Shown in pieces: positions 5,892 through 14,866 of a stretch of 21,162 bases of DNA (position 1 is the stretch's first letter; each line of letters begins with the position of its first letter). The translations under genes were made by a program, and so were the position numbers. The notes beneath the pieces were generated by a model, which did no database searches, was not told where the DNA came from, and saw only the letters and a list, made by a program, of their open reading frames with translations. The DNA comes from a virus, in the IMG/VR virus record IMGVR_UViG_3300022696_000136, positions 1-21,162 of that record. One strand, written 5' to 3'.

Positions 5892-7949
5892 ATGTTTCAG
5901 GGAAATCCTAGAATAAGAGCATGGAATGATGAAGTTGAAGTTACCAAAGAAATTCAATATGAGTTTCTTAGGTGTATGGAGGATATTATATATTTTTCTA
6001 AAAAGTATTGTAATATTATAACAATCGATCACGGTAGAATTTTAATAGGTGATAAATTAAGAGAGTATCAAAAAAAGATGCTCAAGGCTTTTTTACATAC
6101 ACCAAAGAATAAAAAAAATTGTATTGTTTTGGCACCTCGACAGTCAGCAAAAACAACAACTGCTGCAATATATATAACACATCAAATGTTATTTAATGAG
6201 GATAAAACTATAGCTATTTTAGCTAACAAAGAAAAAACTGCTATTGAAATTTTAGAAAGAGTTAAAGAGATTTATGAAGGGCTTCCATTGTGGATGCAAG
6301 TTGGTGTTGAGAAAGGTGGATGGAATAGAAAAACAATACAACTTTCTAACAAAATAAAAGTTATAGCGGAATCTACTTCATCAAGTGCTATTCGTGGTAT
6401 GTCTATATCTTTGTTATATCTTGATGAGTTTGCTTTTATTCCTTCTCATGTTGCTGATGAGTTTATGACTTCTGTATATCCAACGATTTCTTCTGGTAAA
6501 AAATCAAAAATAATAGTAGCGAGCACACCAAATGGAATAAATCATTTTTATGATCTTTGGGATCGTGCTGTTAGAGGAGACAACTCTTTTTATCCAATAC
6601 AGATAAGATGGAACGAACCACCAAATAGAGATGAAGAGTGGAGACAGTCTACTATAAAAGATATTGGATTGATTAAGTTTAATCAAGAATTTGCGTGTCT
6701 TCATGGTGATTCTGTTGTTGATATTATCGATGATATGGGAAATGAGAATAGAACAACTTTAAAAGATTTATATAATAGAGATAAGTTAGGAATAAAGAAA
6801 GTTAATGGTTATAAAATAAAAACTCCTTATGGCTATTGTAATTTTTACGGAATTGCTAAATATAAAAAACAAATTTTATATAAAGTTAGAACTTATGATA
6901 ATATTTTTGTTTGCAATAGAGAACACAAACTAATTGTTGGTGGGGAGACAGTTTTTTTAAAAAATCTTGAAGAAGGAAATTTTGTAACGAATTCAAATTT
7001 AGAGCAAGAGGTTATTTTAGAAATATCTAAATTGAATGAGAAAGATAATGTTTATGATATTTTGAGTGTTGAAAATAATGATCATAGTTATATATCTAAT
7101 AATATAATACATTCAAATTGTAAATTTATTGGTTCTACCTCAACATTAATAGACCCAGATATTTTAGAGAATTTGAGTTATAGAGACCCAATATCGTATA
7201 AATACGAAGGTCTTTTTCAAATATGGGAAGAGCCTGTGGATAATTGTGATTATGTTATAGGTGTAGATTCTGCTGAGGGTATTGGTAGCGATTTTAGTGT
7301 TGTTCAAGTTTTGAAAATAAATAACTCTAAGGATATTGTTCAGGTTGCTAAATATTCCAACAATTTTATAGATGCTTACAATTTTTCAAAAATAGTTATT
7401 GCAATATCAAAATACTACAATGATGCTGAATTAATGATTGAGAATAACAATGTTGGTAGAATTGTTGCAAATACTGTTTGGAATGATTATGATTATGGTA
7501 AAGTTGTTAATATGAATTCTAAAGAATTGGGTATTCGATCTACAAGAAAATCTAAATTAGATGGCAATGTTAATATGAAGAAATATATAGAATCTAATTG
7601 GTTAAAAATTAACGATAGGAAAACTTTGCATGAATTGAGTTTATATAAAGAAGTTTCTCCAAATGTTTATAAGTGTGGTAAATCTGATCATGATGATCAT
7701 GTAACAGCACTGCTTTGGGGATTATATTATTTGATAACACCGTTTTATTCAGGATATGATGATTCTATTAAAGATATTGATGCAAAATACAATTTAGTAG
7801 AACCAAATGAGCCAGTGTTCGTTAGTGATGAAGAAGACGTTGGGGATTATTTGGATGAAAATTTTGACGATTCTGAGATATATGAGGATGATGATGAAAA
7901 TTTTGATAGTTATTTGGATGAATTTGATGATGAAGAAGATGTTTTTTAA
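5892..7949 (+). CDS. 17: Terminase large subunit, T4 gp17-like, interrupted by an in-frame intein
   Basis: ATPase-nuclease motor that packages DNA into the prohead. The 685-residue precursor holds a 141-residue intein (269-409), leaving a 544-residue spliced enzyme (T4 gp17 is 610). ATPase domain: Walker A APRQSAKTT (81-89), Walker B LLYLDE (174-179, Glu179 catalytic), coupling motif VASTPNG (209-215). Nuclease domain: VDS with Asp459, IENN with Glu517 and HDDH with Asp601, matching T4 Asp401, Glu458 and Asp542. The intein splits the family motif FNQEFA/CKFIGS. The last 42 residues (644-685) contain 23 Asp/Glu and no Lys/Arg, an acidic tail I do not know from T4. AAGGG at 5884 and ATG 5892 set the start. 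It ends the neck and packaging unit, and a late promoter follows. Confidence 0.96.
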   Translation: MFQGNPRIRAWNDEVEVTKEIQYEFLRCMEDIIYFSKKYCNIITIDHGRILIGDKLREYQKKMLKAFLHTPKNKKNCIVLAPRQSAKTTTAAIYITHQMLFNEDKTIAILANKEKTAIEILERVKEIYEGLPLWMQVGVEKGGWNRKTIQLSNKIKVIAESTSSSAIRGMSISLLYLDEFAFIPSHVADEFMTSVYPTISSGKKSKIIVASTPNGINHFYDLWDRAVRGDNSFYPIQIRWNEPPNRDEEWRQSTIKDIGLIKFNQEFACLHGDSVVDIIDDMGNENRTTLKDLYNRDKLGIKKVNGYKIKTPYGYCNFYGIAKYKKQILYKVRTYDNIFVCNREHKLIVGGETVFLKNLEEGNFVTNSNLEQEVILEISKLNEKDNVYDILSVENNDHSYISNNIIHSNCKFIGSTSTLIDPDILENLSYRDPISYKYEGLFQIWEEPVDNCDYVIGVDSAEGIGSDFSVVQVLKINNSKDIVQVAKYSNNFIDAYNFSKIVIAISKYYNDAELMIENNNVGRIVANTVWNDYDYGKVVNMNSKELGIRSTRKSKLDGNVNMKKYIESNWLKINDRKTLHELSLYKEVSPNVYKCGKSDHDDHVTALLWGLYYLITPFYSGYDDSIKDIDAKYNLVEPNEPVFVSDEEDVGDYLDENFDDSEIYEDDDENFDSYLDEFDDEEDVF
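6696..7118 (+). other. Mini-intein in the large terminase (residues 269-409, no homing endonuclease)
   Basis: In-frame insertion beginning at Cys269 (block A CLHGDSVVDI) and ending at Asn409, followed by extein Cys410. Block B is FVCNREHKLIV with His345, though the usual Thr of TxxH is Asn342. Block F is VYDILSVENNDHSY with Asp389 and His398. Block G is NNIIHSN, so the residue before the terminal Asn is Ser rather than the usual His. At 141 residues it is a minimal splicing domain with no LAGLIDADG or HNH motif between blocks B and F. Removing it rejoins FNQEFA with CKFIGST, the uninterrupted gp17 motif. Class 1 cis-splicing is the expected mechanism. Activity is not proven by sequence. Confidence 0.93.
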
Positions 7950-9850: not shown

Positions 9851-10402
9851 ATGCCTAAATTTTCAATAGAAAGTCGTTCTAAAAATATACCAGATATTTT
9901 TAGGTCATTTAAATGGGAATTGTCTATTCCTGAGATTTCAATAGTGGCTCCTTCTTTTGTCAATGAAGAAGGTTTTACTATTAGAGCAAGAAGTGTTTCA
10001 ATCCCTCAGAGAGGTGTTGAAGTTATTGAAAGCAATTTTATGGGAATGAAACAGATATTTCCTGGTAGAAATAATTTTGCTAATACTGTTACTGTTACGT
10101 TAGAAGAAACAGAAGACATGTTGGTTACTAAGGGTCTTTATGAATGGCAACAAAGAATTTTTAATATTGATCCTGATTCTGACAACAATGGTGGCTCAGA
10201 GGTAGAAAGAAAAAGAGAATTGACAACGGACATCTTTTTAAAAGCATATAAATATAATAATGATCAGACTGATAGAATGTTTAGACTTTTCAATGCTTTT
10301 CCACAAGATGTTGCCGAAGTAGCTCTTGATTATACTGGAAATGAGGCCGTCCAATATTCTGTTACTTTTTATTATGATTTTCATAAATTAATAGAATCTT
10401 AA
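9851..10402 (+). CDS. 19: Tail tube protein, T4 gp19-like
   Basis: Hexamer-ring protein forming the inner tube of the contractile tail. 183 residues (T4 gp19 is 163). Features typical of the tube fold are visible: FKWELSIPE (20-28), a long strand region IRARSVSIPQRGVEVIES with the SVSIP turn, NTVTVTLEETED, and a closing AEVALDYTGNEAVQYSVTFYYDF. AGGAG at 9837-9841 sets ATG 9851. It directly follows the sheath gene, as in T4. The 35-base gap contains TTTATAAGCAT (9822-9832), a poor match to the late box, so expression may come from the sheath promoter. Two further proteins with the same fold signature follow at 10788 and 11326. Confidence 0.93.
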   Translation: MPKFSIESRSKNIPDIFRSFKWELSIPEISIVAPSFVNEEGFTIRARSVSIPQRGVEVIESNFMGMKQIFPGRNNFANTVTVTLEETEDMLVTKGLYEWQQRIFNIDPDSDNNGGSEVERKRELTTDIFLKAYKYNNDQTDRMFRLFNAFPQDVAEVALDYTGNEAVQYSVTFYYDFHKLIES

Positions 10403-10405
10403 TTA

Positions 10406-10786
10406 ATGAATAAATTTGTTAGTTTTTTAAAGGAAAATAAAACATTCAAACCGCCGGTTAATGTAGCTAAGGAAGCAGAAAAAGGTCTAGAATATAGAAA
10501 GAAGGCTGGTGGTGAGGGTGGTTTGTCTAACAAAGAAGCATCTAAGGCTGGTGTTGGTTCTGGTGTTCAGAGAGCTGTTAATTTAAAAAATAGAGATGAA
10601 ATTACACTTTCTACAATAAAAAGAATGAGTTCTTTTTTTGCCAGACATGAAAAAAATAAATCAGTATCTCCTGAGAACAAAGATGAGCCGTGGAAAGATA
10701 AGGGTAGAGTAGCTTGGTTGTTGTGGGGTGGTGATTCTGGAAAAAAGTGGGTAGATGATATTTTATCTAATTTAGAGAAAAAATAA
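10406..10786 (+). CDS. Small basic protein with conserved GGEGGL...RHEKNK...AWLLWGGD domain
   Basis: A 126-residue protein between two tube-type genes. Visible parts are an N-terminal MNKFVSFLKEN resembling a capsid-targeting peptide (LKE at 8-10 is a possible prohead-protease site), KAGGEGGLS (33-41), GVGSGVQRAVNLKNR (49-63), IKRMSSFFARHEKNK (71-85) and GRVAWLLWGGDSGKKW (100-115). The last blocks belong to a small domain that I recall in many phage head or maturation proteins and some bacterial proteins (pattern ...RMxxFFxRHxxxK...GRxAWxxWGGDxGxxW). I know of no established function. No clear ribosome site precedes ATG 10406; the gap to the tube gene is 3 nt, so coupling is likely. Head-internal protein is the best guess, held loosely. 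Confidence 0.8.
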   Translation: MNKFVSFLKENKTFKPPVNVAKEAEKGLEYRKKAGGEGGLSNKEASKAGVGSGVQRAVNLKNRDEITLSTIKRMSSFFARHEKNKSVSPENKDEPWKDKGRVAWLLWGGDSGKKWVDDILSNLEKK

Positions 10787-10787
10787 A

Positions 10788-11324
10788 ATGTTTCACATAG
10801 AAAATAGAAGTAAAAACTTACCAAATCCAGCAACAACTTTTATGTGGGAATTGCATATTCCTAACATAAATGACATTTTGGGTTCTTATGAAAATGAAGG
10901 TTTTATAGTTAGATGTAGGAGTGTTAGTATACCATCGAGAACTACAGAACCAATTGAGACCTTTTTTTTAGGTCATAAAAAAACTTTTTCTGGAAGAACT
11001 CAATTTTCAAATATAATAAATGTTTTATATGAAGAAACCGAAGATTTATATATAACAAAAAGTTTATATAATTGGATGGAAAAAATAGAGTCTATTGATC
11101 CTGAAGATTCTGAAAGAGGAACATCTAAATCATATTTACAAAAAAATTTAAATTCTGATCTTTTCCTTTTTTTGTATGGTTATAATAAAAGAAAATTAGA
11201 TAAAAAAATAAGATTTCATAATGCGAGGCCACAATCTTTAGATGAGGTTAATTTAGATTACACCGACAACTCAGCAATAAAGTTTTCTGTAAATTTTCAC
11301 TTTGATTTTTGGAGTCTTGTGTAA
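10788..11324 (+). CDS. Second tail-tube-fold protein, gp19 paralogue (possible baseplate-proximal tube ring)
   Basis: 178 residues that align over their whole length with the 9851 product: HIENRSKNLPNPATTFMWELHIP against SIESRSKNIPDIFRSFKWELSIP, RCRSVSIPSR against RARSVSIPQR, EETEDLYITKSLYNWM against EETEDMLVTKGLYEWQ, and VNLDYTDNSAIKFSVNFHFDF against VALDYTGNEAVQYSVTFYYDF. It is therefore a clear paralogue of the tube protein. In T4 and other contractile systems, special tube-like rings (gp54, gp48; Afp5 type) join the main tube to the baseplate, which is the likely role here. It starts 1 nt after the upstream stop with only a weak GAGA ribosome site, consistent with lower expression than the main tube. 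Confidence 0.88.
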   Translation: MFHIENRSKNLPNPATTFMWELHIPNINDILGSYENEGFIVRCRSVSIPSRTTEPIETFFLGHKKTFSGRTQFSNIINVLYEETEDLYITKSLYNWMEKIESIDPEDSERGTSKSYLQKNLNSDLFLFLYGYNKRKLDKKIRFHNARPQSLDEVNLDYTDNSAIKFSVNFHFDFWSLV

Positions 11325-11325
11325 T

Positions 11326-11979
11326 ATGCCTAAAGGTGTTAATAGTTTACAATTAAAAGGATTTTATAGTGATTTAAATTTGAAGACTATCCAAAAGTCT
11401 TATAAATTTTATGTTTCAATTTTTGATGATAATGATCCGAGAAAAAAAGAGTTAGTAAAAGAAATTGGTGCGATGCCACCAATAGCAAATTGGCACGTTA
11501 AAAATGTAACTATTCCTCAGTATTCTTTTGAAAAGGTTTTGTTGAATTATGGGCCTATTGTCAAATCTATACCCGCTATGAATTTTGAGGGTTTTGATAT
11601 TAAGATCGATTTTGAAGAAGATGAGTTTGGAACAATTCAGTATTTTATTAATTGGTGTCAGTCTAAAATAATTAGAAAAGATGGTACGTATAGATCGCAG
11701 TTAGAAAATAGAATATCCAATCTTATAATTGAAACTGAAGATGACTATGGAGTGCCAATAAATATTTTTTGGTATAAAGATGTTTACTTTTTAAATTCTT
11801 CTGAAGTTTCTTTTGATTATGCATCAAACGAATCTATAACACATAGTGTAACATTTGCTGCAGACATTCAACAAGTTTTTCCACTTAAAGCGTTTCCTCT
11901 TGCCGCATTCAAGTCTGCTATACAGCTTGGTGCTTCACAAGCTAATGAGGTTCTTTCTAGTTTGAAAAATTCTATTTAA
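11326..11979 (+). CDS. Third tube-like protein, probable baseplate tube initiator (gp54-type role)
   Basis: 217 residues from ATG 11326, two bases after the previous stop; GGAG at 11311-11314 lies upstream. The frame runs back to 11302 inside the previous gene, but that start would overlap and has no ribosome site. Divergent from the other two, it keeps the tube-fold order: an N-terminal strand KSYKFYVSIFDDND, VKNVTIPQYSFEKVLL with the characteristic turn, FEGFDIKIDFEEDEFG, a helix QYFINWCQSKI, and the closing FLNSSEVSFDYASNESITHSVTFAADI, matching the DYTGNEAVQYSVTF motif of the tube. The extra C-terminal 30 residues are Ala/Leu-rich and helical. Location at the end of the tube cluster and before the baseplate genes suggests the ring on which the tube nucleates. 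Function is inferred. Confidence 0.8.
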   Translation: MPKGVNSLQLKGFYSDLNLKTIQKSYKFYVSIFDDNDPRKKELVKEIGAMPPIANWHVKNVTIPQYSFEKVLLNYGPIVKSIPAMNFEGFDIKIDFEEDEFGTIQYFINWCQSKIIRKDGTYRSQLENRISNLIIETEDDYGVPINIFWYKDVYFLNSSEVSFDYASNESITHSVTFAADIQQVFPLKAFPLAAFKSAIQLGASQANEVLSSLKNSI

Positions 11980-12062: not shown

Positions 12063-12866
12063 ATGAAAGTAGTTGATAATACTCCAAATGAGAAAAAAGT
12101 AATTCAAAAGCAAGAAACATTACAAGAGAAAAGTGAATCGTTTTTTGAGATTGATGATTTACCAAGTAGAAATTATTTCTATCCAGAAGGTGTTGTTATT
12201 GAGGGAAGGCGTTTAAAAGTTTTGGAAGCTAAAAAATTAGCATCTATAAATGAAGTTAATTATAATTCTGTTATAAATGATGTTTTAAGAAGATGTATAA
12301 GAGGGATTGATATTAATGATTTGTTAGTAGAAGATAAGTTATTTTTAATATTTTGGTTGAGAGCCAACACGTATAGAAGTTCTGGATATGAAATAGATTT
12401 TGAGTGCCCACTTTGTGGAGGAAAATCGAGTTATCATTTTGAACTAGATAAGTTAAATGTTAAATATCTTAAAGAAGATTTTTCTGATGATGATTTAGTT
12501 TTAACATTACCAGAGAGTGGTGATGTGATTAAATATAATTTTTTGAGAGTTAGAGATGAGAAAAAATCTGAGCAGTTTAAGAAACAATTTGGAAATATTG
12601 TTTCTGATTTAGATTCTGATTTGGTTGATGTTACTCAGTTGATTGATACCATAAACGATGAAAAATTAAAACCTGTAGATGTGTATAATTATTTAATTGA
12701 AGAATTAAATCCAGATGATTTTTCGTATCTACTTTCTTATATAAAAGAAAAGGGATGTGGTGTTGAAAATTATGTGACAGTTGATTGTCCACACTGTGGA
12801 GGTGCCCCTGATATTGGGGTTGTGTTTCTCGGAGATTTCTTTCTTCCCGAATATAGATTTAGATGA
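12063..12866 (+). CDS. Baseplate hub assembly protein, T4 gp26/gp51-type, likely tail assembly chaperone
   Basis: 267 residues with two CPxCG zinc-knuckle motifs, CPLCG (115-119) and CPHCG (242-246), flanking a mixed alpha/beta middle. This matches the T4 baseplate assembly family (gp26/gp51 type) as I know it: an N-terminal strand pair (GVVIEGRRLKVLEAKKL), helical SVINDVLRRCIRGIDINDLLVEDKLFLIFWLRANTY (69-104), a knuckle, a regulatory domain, then a second knuckle. T4 gp26, gp28 and gp51 help build the hub and are not major virion parts, consistent with a chaperone role. ATG 12063 is preferred (TGAGG at 12051-12055); the frame extends back only to TTG 12057. The ORF stops five codons after a CCC-G stretch (12846), beyond which the +1 frame is open and seems to continue the protein. 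It lies directly before the tape measure gene, the usual place of frameshifted tail chaperones. Which of gp26 or gp51 it represents is unclear. Confidence 0.82.
   Translation: MKVVDNTPNEKKVIQKQETLQEKSESFFEIDDLPSRNYFYPEGVVIEGRRLKVLEAKKLASINEVNYNSVINDVLRRCIRGIDINDLLVEDKLFLIFWLRANTYRSSGYEIDFECPLCGGKSSYHFELDKLNVKYLKEDFSDDDLVLTLPESGDVIKYNFLRVRDEKKSEQFKKQFGNIVSDLDSDLVDVTQLIDTINDEKLKPVDVYNYLIEELNPDDFSYLLSYIKEKGCGVENYVTVDCPHCGGAPDIGVVFLGDFFLPEYRFR
12843..12849 (+). promoter_or_regulatory. Candidate +1 frameshift site (CTT CCC G)
   Basis: In the 12063 frame the codons CTT CCC GAA are read as Leu261-Pro262-Glu263. A +1 slip of the prolyl-tRNA from CCC to CCG would leave the five-codon route to TGA 12864 and enter the open +1 frame (AAT ATA GAT TTA GAT). 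CCC is the base context of known +1 shifts (for example the Listeria phage PSA CCC-TGA site). It is a rare Pro codon among the CCA/CCT choices of these genes. GGAG at 12831-12834 lies 11 bases upstream. Programmed shifting is a hypothesis; a one-base natural indel or sequencing error near CCC would look the same. Confidence 0.5.
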
Positions 12867-13050
12867 ATTATATGAAATGGAATTCCAACTTTCATATAAT
12901 TTGAAATGCAGTTTTAATTTTGATGATAGAGATTATTTTGAATTTTTATGGATGTATGAAAGGTTGGCTAATCAAAAGCATTCAGAAAATAATAGTAACA
13001 ATGGCATAGAAAAGCTAATACAAGGGTCTAATAATGGCAAATCAGGATAG
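12850..13050 (+). CDS. Downstream +1-frame segment, probable C-terminal extension of the hub assembly protein
   Basis: This frame is open from 12781 to TAG 13048-13050. From the proposed slip at 12849 it adds 66 residues, NIDLDELYEMEFQLSYNLKC..., making a 328-residue fusion. The join reads GDFFLP-NIDLDELYEMEF, which looks like continuous protein. The segment is helical, ending in EFLWMYERLANQKHSENNS and a polar tail, typical of the second part of tail assembly chaperones. As a separate gene it would start at ATG 12877 (57 residues), but no ribosome-binding site precedes that ATG. It overlaps the tape measure start (13034) by 17 bases. The coding nature is well supported by composition; whether it is expressed by frameshift, by re-initiation after TGA 12864, or is an indel-split gene is open. 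Confidence 0.65.
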   Translation, partial: NIDLDELYEMEFQLSYNLKCSFNFDDRDYFEFLWMYERLANQKHSENNSNNGIEKLIQGSNNGKSG

Positions 13051-14866
13051 AGATGAGAGATTAATTAAAAGTATTGAAGGGTTAATTAAATCTACTAGAA
13101 AAGAAAACAATGTTAGAAAAAAAGACGTTGGTTTGGATATTGATAAAAAAACTCTTAAATCTATAGAACAGTTAGTTAGTATAAATAAAAAACAGTTAGA
13201 GAATAGTAAAAGAGGTGGGCTAATTGCTGGTCTTGGAACTCTTTTGGGTGTTGGTGGGTTGATGGGTTATTTTTTGACTGGTAAAAAAGAGTTTCTAAAT
13301 TCTTTCATTAAAGGTTTTGCAAAGTTTAGTCCTACTAAATTCATCTTCAATGCTTTGGAGATGGGAATAAGAAAAGCTGGTAAAAAATTAATATCTCCAA
13401 TAGGTTCTATGTTTTCTACTATTTTTAGTGGTGTTGTTAAAATTCCTGGAGTTGCTAAATCGTTAGACATGCTTAGTGGTTTATTCAAACCAATATCTAA
13501 GGTGTTGAGTGGCTTTGTTGGTGTTGCTGGCAAGGTTGGAGCTTCTGTTGGTTTGAAGGTTGGTGGAAAGGCAGTTGGCACTGCTACAAAGACTGGATTG
13601 AAAAAGATTCCAGTGCTTGGTGCGGTTCTGGGAGTATTGTTTGGCATACAAAGATTTTCAGAAAATGATTATTCTGGTGGGTTGTTAGAAATAGCGTCAG
13701 GTGTTGCTTCGTTATTCCCAGGCATAGGAACCGCAATAAGTTTAGGTATCGATGGGGTGTTGCTTGCTAAAGATACTTTGAGTGCTTTTAATCCGCCAGA
13801 AGTAAAACCATATAAACATCAAAAAAAATCTCTTTCTCAAATACCTGTTTTTTCACCGATTGTTAATATTTTAAAATCTATTGGTAATTTTATTACTGAT
13901 CCTCTTGGTAGTATGAAAAATTTAACTGAGAGTGTTGGCACAATGTTTCCTGGTATTGGTGGTGTTATGTCAAAAGCCACTAATTTTATTGATGGTATGA
14001 TGAATGATCCTACAGTTAAAAAAATAAAAAGCATTACTTCTCCAGTAACTGATAGTGTGTTTGATTTTGGTAAAAAAATATTCTCTTCTGCTAAGGATGA
14101 TGCTAAGAGACTTGGTGATGTTGCTTTAAAACCTTTCAATATGACTTCTGATGAGGCTTTGAGTTCTGTTCAAGATTATACAGCAAAACAAATTCCAAAA
14201 ATTACAAGTGTGTTTGATAATATTGGTGGTTTTTTTGGATTGCGCCCAGAAGGTGATCATGTTGATATTGCAAATTTGCATCCTAATGTTAGACATAATT
14301 TATTAAACATGGCAGCAGAGTATAGTGCTAAAACAGGAAAAACGATTCAAATAAATTCTGGATATAGGACATATGAAGAACAAGAAAGACTTTTTGATGA
14401 GTATGGTGCAGGTAGAGCTGCTGAGCCTGGTAGGTCTATGCACAACTTTGGGTATGCTTTTGATATTAACTCTTCTGATGCAAGTTCTTTACAACAACAT
14501 GGTTTGTTAGATAAATATAAATTTCATAAACCATTTGGTTCTAAAGAAGCATGGCACATTGAACCATCAAATGTTGATAGGGCGACTTTGAAAAACACTG
14601 GAGGAAGATCTGGAGGATTTGGTGGGGGTGATGCTACAACGATAAATTTTCAACCTAAAGACATTCCAACTATAAAACAGGATGTTGCTAACATGAAAAA
14701 CATTCCAATTAGTAAAATTGTTAATGATGCAAAAAATAGTGTTTTAAAAATGAGTTTAGATAATAGTACAATAGAAAAATTATCTGATATGATTGCAGAG
14801 AAAACAAAAAGAAATAAATTAGTTTTAAATGAAAAATATTCAGTAAACTTTAGCGGTAGAGCTTAA
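13034..14866 (+). CDS. Tape measure protein with M15 (VanY-type) peptidase domain, gp29-like role
   Basis: 610 residues, close to T4 gp29 (590). N-terminal 1-60 is a charged coiled coil (KSIEGLIKSTRKENN, KSIEQLVSINKKQLEN). From 61 to about 400 it alternates glycine-rich hydrophobic segments (GGLIAGLGTLLGVGGLMGYF at 61-80, IPVLGAVLGVLFGIQ at 192-206, GIGTAISLGIDGVLLA at 230-245) with amphipathic helices, as in tape measure proteins that line the tail lumen. Residues about 405-515 are a D,D-carboxypeptidase-like domain: NSGYRT (441-446), SMHNFGYAFDI with His470 and Asp477 as zinc ligands, and EAWHIEP with Glu505 as the likely base and His508 as ligand. So the length ruler also brings a peptidoglycan-cutting domain. 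It follows the chaperone-like gene and precedes the tube cap gene, the standard order. Exact equivalence to gp29 is inferred from context. Confidence 0.85.
   Translation: MANQDRDERLIKSIEGLIKSTRKENNVRKKDVGLDIDKKTLKSIEQLVSINKKQLENSKRGGLIAGLGTLLGVGGLMGYFLTGKKEFLNSFIKGFAKFSPTKFIFNALEMGIRKAGKKLISPIGSMFSTIFSGVVKIPGVAKSLDMLSGLFKPISKVLSGFVGVAGKVGASVGLKVGGKAVGTATKTGLKKIPVLGAVLGVLFGIQRFSENDYSGGLLEIASGVASLFPGIGTAISLGIDGVLLAKDTLSAFNPPEVKPYKHQKKSLSQIPVFSPIVNILKSIGNFITDPLGSMKNLTESVGTMFPGIGGVMSKATNFIDGMMNDPTVKKIKSITSPVTDSVFDFGKKIFSSAKDDAKRLGDVALKPFNMTSDEALSSVQDYTAKQIPKITSVFDNIGGFFGLRPEGDHVDIANLHPNVRHNLLNMAAEYSAKTGKTIQINSGYRTYEEQERLFDEYGAGRAAEPGRSMHNFGYAFDINSSDASSLQQHGLLDKYKFHKPFGSKEAWHIEPSNVDRATLKNTGGRSGGFGGGDATTINFQPKDIPTIKQDVANMKNIPISKIVNDAKNSVLKMSLDNSTIEKLSDMIAEKTKRNKLVLNEKYSVNFSGRA

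Follow-up and report, generated by a model that had tools for sequence, protein, structure and literature searches.

The window, the whole 21,162-nt stretch of IMG/VR virus record IMGVR_UViG_3300022696_000136 that was analysed, contains a T4-type structural cluster. Within it, tail tube genes (9851-11979) are followed by a putative tail assembly chaperone gene and then by the tape measure ORF, which starts at 13034. The following features lie at the chaperone gene and directly downstream:

12063-12866, plus strand: 0-frame ORF of the short form (TAC-N, T4 gp26 type), 267 aa with an ATG start and two CxxC pairs
12837-12843, plus strand: predicted +1 slip site UUC UUU_C, where tRNA-Phe on UUU (12840-12842) would re-pair with UUC (12841-12843)
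12844-13050, plus strand: +1-frame extension, the predicted equivalent of the T4 gp51 C-terminus, 68 codons and a stop after a UUU_C slip
12846-12849, plus strand: alternative +1 slip site CCC_G, present in the window, with CCC in only 5/83 relatives among the matches listed
12864-12866, plus strand: 0-frame stop TGA that ends the short form, from the ORF reading
12865-12902, plus strand: hairpin that may stimulate the shift, with 16 base pairs and a bulge of 2 nt, -13.1 kcal/mol, z -2.66
13034-14866, plus strand: tape measure protein gene with an M15/VanY-like peptidase domain (VanY PF02557, E=1e-10; phrog tape measure matches)

The 3′ end of the 0-frame ORF reads GGA GAT TTC TTT CTT CCC GAA TAT AGA TTT AGA TGA, and the +1 frame is open between a stop at 12775 and the stop at 13048-13050. 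The long product has 328 residues whether the +1 shift falls at UUU_C (12840-12843) or at CCC_G (12846-12849), and the two predicted long products are one residue apart (GDFF-FPNID for UUU_C, GDFFLP-NID for CCC_G). The extension overlaps the start of the tape measure ORF by 17 nt. A split gene with a 328-residue long form just before the tape measure gene was what an earlier, sequence-only reading had described, and it was correct, with ORFs and frames as claimed.

The 0-frame protein matched PF12322 (T4_baseplate) with E=2.5e-11 and 44.1 bits against a curated cut-off of 24.5, and the same protein matched phrog_150 (baseplate hub). The AF2 model of the short form (pLDDT 89.8) matched the models of SP-15 and of T4-type gp26 proteins. 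A BFVD fold search with the short form gave 61 matches at E<=0.001, including the SP-15 hub (TM 0.72-0.77), and other matches were the VH7D hub and Gp26 of Aeromonas phage 25; a PDB fold search with the chaperone model gave no match at E<=0.001. Gene position and homology to T4 gp26/gp51 point to a chaperone role for the protein.

Some observations concern other genes in the window. Downstream of the sheath, the region 9851-11979 holds two tail-tube-like genes, separated by a small phrog_2859 gene, and a third that is weakly similar (E 0.007). The VanY/M15 peptidase domain of the tape measure protein lies at residues about 414-488. The large terminase (5892-7949) has an insertion at 6720-7140, between Terminase_6N (79-272) and Terminase_6C (456-611), which starts ...FNQEFACLHGDSV, ends ...SNNIIHSNC and resembles a small intein; a comparison with Pfam gave no Hint-type profile match to the insertion.

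An ordinary single gene split by an indel or a sequencing error would give the same picture at one locus, and only one further contig of the species was found. However, that contig (IMG/VR 3300022671_000047) carries the identical split and has one SNP elsewhere across 401 aligned bases, and thus an assembly error is unlikely. The comparison of homologues that the sequence-only reading had proposed showed that the one-base-offset split is common to 71 of 76 IMG/VR relatives among the matches listed, compared to 15 of 233 (6%) other gene ends at the same loci when a single criterion was applied to all stops; sequence counts across relatives, these included, are not phylogenetically independent. 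An indel or error was rejected as already contradicted by the second contig and by the clade-wide conservation of the +1 architecture, and we give it next to no chance.

Two IMG/VR scans revealed at least 145 further loci, and the family is much larger than these. Among the matches listed, the +1 frame was open past the 0-frame stop (through the stop and for 90 nt or more after it, or up to the contig end) at 127 of 139 loci with a stop inside the locus, and at 35 of those 127 the -1 frame was open as well. Ninety-five genes, named phages included, were left at 80% protein identity, and among these listed matches 74 were open in the +1 frame only, 8 in both frames and 8 in the -1 frame, with 5 left unclassed, most of them truncated at a contig end. 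The extension lies in the +1 frame in SP-15, LIS04, GXN1, phiXF1, PhiXhv-15 and Mel-JY01, and phiLo probably also continues in this frame. It lies in the -1 frame in PA5oct, Atu_ph07, the 595-kb phage LR756511 and the cyanophages. The window protein is distant from its nearest relatives (about 28% identity). Scans for close relatives with P0001, P0002 and the tail tube protein returned the same species only, or nothing, and a DNA search of the window against the phage collection gave no match.

The phase of conservation also changes at the site. At the 68 TTT TTT T loci among the matches listed, conserved second codon positions follow the 0-frame phase up to the site and, starting about 12 nt downstream, the +1 phase; the stretch in between is constrained in both frames. 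A short and an extended product with a shared N-terminus are conserved at genome level. The small separate gp51 annotated in cyanophages and KVP40 might suggest two separate genes, with the +1 ORF translated from its own start, but only 1 of 82 extensions among the matches listed has a start codon of its own with an SD-like sequence. Fused versions also exist (T4 gp51 and L102/L118), and we regard separate genes as highly improbable. These sequence comparisons give strong support to a programmed +1 frameshift that extends a gp26-type chaperone into a long form just upstream of the tape measure gene.

The sequence-only reading had placed the shift at CCC_G. This is the sole in-frame CCC of the window gene, proline codons are known +1 sites in Listeria phage PSA (PMC5009743), and phiXF1 carries CCC TAA. 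The relatives did not bear this position out. Among the matches listed, each of the 83 non-redundant +1 relatives carries, at a conserved Phe-Phe, an in-frame UUU whose next base is U or C, whereas a CCC codon near the site is found in only 5 of the 83, and the slip thus most likely takes tRNA-Phe from UUU to UUY. In addition, the fused copies of the main clade, described below, show the junction that a Phe slip predicts. A slip at CCC_G is therefore unlikely in our judgement.

With UUU_Y in 83/83 of the listed matches, the re-pairing codon is conserved beyond the need of the protein. The 0-frame codons at the site are TTT TTT TGG CCT or TTT TTT TAC CCT in the large +1 group. Among the matches listed, the second Phe codon is TTT in 79/82 and TTC in 0/82, compared to 72% TTT elsewhere (p=1e-8), and near the site Tyr is always TAC and Pro nearly always CCT, both of which are minority codons elsewhere. 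Re-pairing in the P site after a +1 step is possible in all of the variants TTC TTT TGG, TTT CTT TGG, TTC TTT C (the window and GXN1) and TTT TTT C (SP-15); the site of locus L116 is TTT TTT CGT. LIS04 has UUU_A at the second Phe, and there the slip would have to fall on the first. The base before TTT TTT is T in only 1 of 71 +1 loci among the matches listed, compared to 28 expected from synonymous usage, suggesting that the -1 heptamer T_TTT_TTT is avoided. In the -1 group the base preceding the Phe pair is T, with few exceptions. For the window, the relatives of about 28% identity place the slip most likely at UUU_C (12840-12843), with CUU_C and CCC_G kept as candidate slip codons. UUU_C is also found in frame at 12825, and the context must thus matter for the slip.

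Most relatives have seven consecutive T at the site, and both forms could in principle arise from transcriptional slippage on this T-rich run instead of ribosomal frameshifting. However, the window and several relatives have a longest run of only 3-4 T (TTCTTTCTT, TTCTTTTGG, TTTCTTTGG) and still keep the split and the re-pairing. The variants TTC TTT T, TTT CTT T and TTC TTT C break the T run and retain P-site re-pairing. Slippage of the polymerase is thus very unlikely. Phage Mu uses a -2 frameshift, and a shift of this kind would reach the same frame as +1, with TTTTTTT permitting -2 re-pairing; at TTC TTT C and TTC TTT T, in contrast, it would put the tRNA on UCU with a mismatch, whereas a +1 step pairs fully, and -2 is scarcely probable. 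The reading that we retain is a +1 slip of tRNA-Phe.

Candidate stimulators were also considered. Across 81 related loci no conserved downstream RNA structure was found, and folding was at chance (mean percentile 0.46), and a role for the hairpin at 12865-12902 is therefore doubtful. A conserved stop directly 3′ of the slip codon was absent among the +1 relatives listed. Conserved around the site, among the matches listed, were UGG or UAC in the A site and a G or C preceding the site.

The window pair was compared with the established T4 gp26/gp51 pair, and homology was found. T4 gp26 and gp51 are both full-length matches to PF12322, the family of the window protein, with the window short form resembling gp26 and the long form gp51. 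As judged from sequence, T4 gp26 and gp51 are paralogues that correspond to the short and the long form, in T4 encoded by two genes without a frameshift and in the window by one gene with a +1 shift. The likeness of the window extension to the gp51 C-terminus runs by way of the -1 group. A profile of the +1 extensions of 78 relatives, with the window left out, scored 16.3 bits against the window extension (best of 5000 shuffles, 11.5), and a profile of nine -1 extensions scored 19.3 bits against the T4 gp51 C-terminus (shuffles, 10.6). Since the HMMER E-values for these profiles refer to a 17-sequence test set, the comparison with shuffles is the safer measure. The +1 and -1 extension profiles are homologous to each other (hhalign 94%, E=9.6e-8). 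Further, phrog_634 matches the downstream ORF of KVP40 as well as gp51 residues 147-246, the C-terminus, and a likeness of this ORF to gp51 is already mentioned in the KVP40 record.

The cyanophages and KVP40 have the same gene pair, gp26 and a small gp51, with the extension out of frame at the same Phe-Phe, but with a -1 shift at a canonical T_TTT_TTC (typically U_UUU_UUC). The cyanophage pair lies directly before a long gene, which may be the tape measure gene. In the loci of Vibrio phage D507 and CBA120 (L164, L165) the -1 extension is conserved at a site (CTT TTC, ATT TTC) that departs from the canonical heptamer. In a phylogenetic tree, T4 gp26 and gp51 are sisters (99/96) beside the -1 phage LPCS28 (82/85), and the label for shift direction requires at least four changes on the starred branches; deep placements in this tree are unsure because of long branches. 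The extension domain of L102 (4034-4255), L122 and L051 shows a likeness to DUF6760 (PF20546) that stays under the cut-off (best E=2.4e-4) and may connect it with other contractile systems; a literature search on this likeness found no paper.

Five loci (L102 and L118-L121) carry the long form as a natural fusion. Their first gene ends TTA TTC TGG CCT, without a slippery run and without a frameshift extension, and immediately downstream is another PF12322 gene (317-329 aa), which already contains the extension in frame. The junctions read NFF-GL-NPEY in L102 and IF-TL-DPSY in L118. A UUU_U slip would put these same dipeptides, GL and TL, at the start of the extension in 59 and 13 +1 genes, respectively, among the matches listed. 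Within the limits of sequence comparison, these junctions are the best evidence for the position of the shift in that clade. An AF2 model of the fused long form (pLDDT 91.5) showed a mainly helical extension. The tandem of a short and a fused long paralogue apparently is a second duplication, which independently repeats the T4 gp26/gp51 arrangement.

Frameshifting of the G-T type is conserved across long-tailed phages, with T4 excepted (PMC5009743). Lambda G/GT and P2 E/E′ share with the window gene the place before the tape measure gene and the production of a short and a long form by a frameshift near the 3′ end (PMC5009743), but use a -1 shift. The re-pairing one base forward in the P site resembles that in RF2 (prfB) and phage PSA, and CUU_U site variants occur in L023, L029 and L030. 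The prfB site differs in needing a stop codon in the A site, whereas the +1 relatives here usually have UGG or UAC. The SPP1 tail chaperone gp17.5 is made by a +1 frameshift. A +1 frameshift also makes the tail chaperone of HSTV-2 (PMC5009743), and both of these proteins belong to a family other than that of the window protein.

The earlier proposal that T4-type hub assembly factors be united with the classical tail chaperones had been anticipated: according to two citing papers (PMC10885494, PMC12846349), the tail assembly chaperone genes of T4-like phages were identified by Vladimirov, Gautam and Davidson in 2022 (Virology 566:9), and the unification is thus not new. The same papers state that some T4-like phages pair a short gene with a fused long one and that poly-T -1 signals are present in T4-like TAC-N genes. 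In our reading, backed by the homology found here, the genes meant are gp26 and gp51. Our literature search, in which the 2022 paper was represented by the papers citing it, turned up no description of the second duplication, of the +1 branch or of the base by which +1 and -1 sites differ; the +1 branch, the site logic and the second duplication may therefore be new.

The window very probably derives from a divergent T4-type contractile-tail phage whose tail chaperone gene gives a short and a long form by a +1 slip on UUU (12840-12842). The split, its conservation, the homology to gp26/gp51, the natural fusions and the constraint on the site can all be read in the sequences; from them we infer that a slip takes place, how efficient it is, on which codon it falls in this phage and what the two products do. 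Most ribosomes would stop at 12864-12866 and release the 267-aa short form. A minority would slip with tRNA-Phe on UUU in the P site, its GAA anticodon would re-pair with the overlapping UUC, and translation would go on in the +1 frame to a 328-aa long form, whose C-terminal domain would be the counterpart of the one in T4 gp51. If the pair works as lambda G/GT does, the tape measure protein would be covered by numerous short copies and a few long ones, with tail tube subunits recruited by the domain that only the long form carries.

For the family as a whole, we lean towards a model in which the invariant Phe-Phe acts as a reversible frameshift switch, with the flanking bases setting -1 (U_UUU_UUC) or +1 (V_UUU_UUY). 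The direction would have changed at least four times, and on two or more occasions a duplication would have taken the place of the frameshift (T4 gp26/gp51 and the L102/L118 lineage). The two genes of T4 now sit inside a family that otherwise frameshifts, and within it the direction of the shift changes around a fixed codon pair, with the fused copies providing a natural experiment that predicts the junction. Many phage records overlook the extension or list it as a small gene of its own. If the model is true, +1 sites made of UUU_Y and an A-site sense codon would form a class that is widespread but has seldom been described.
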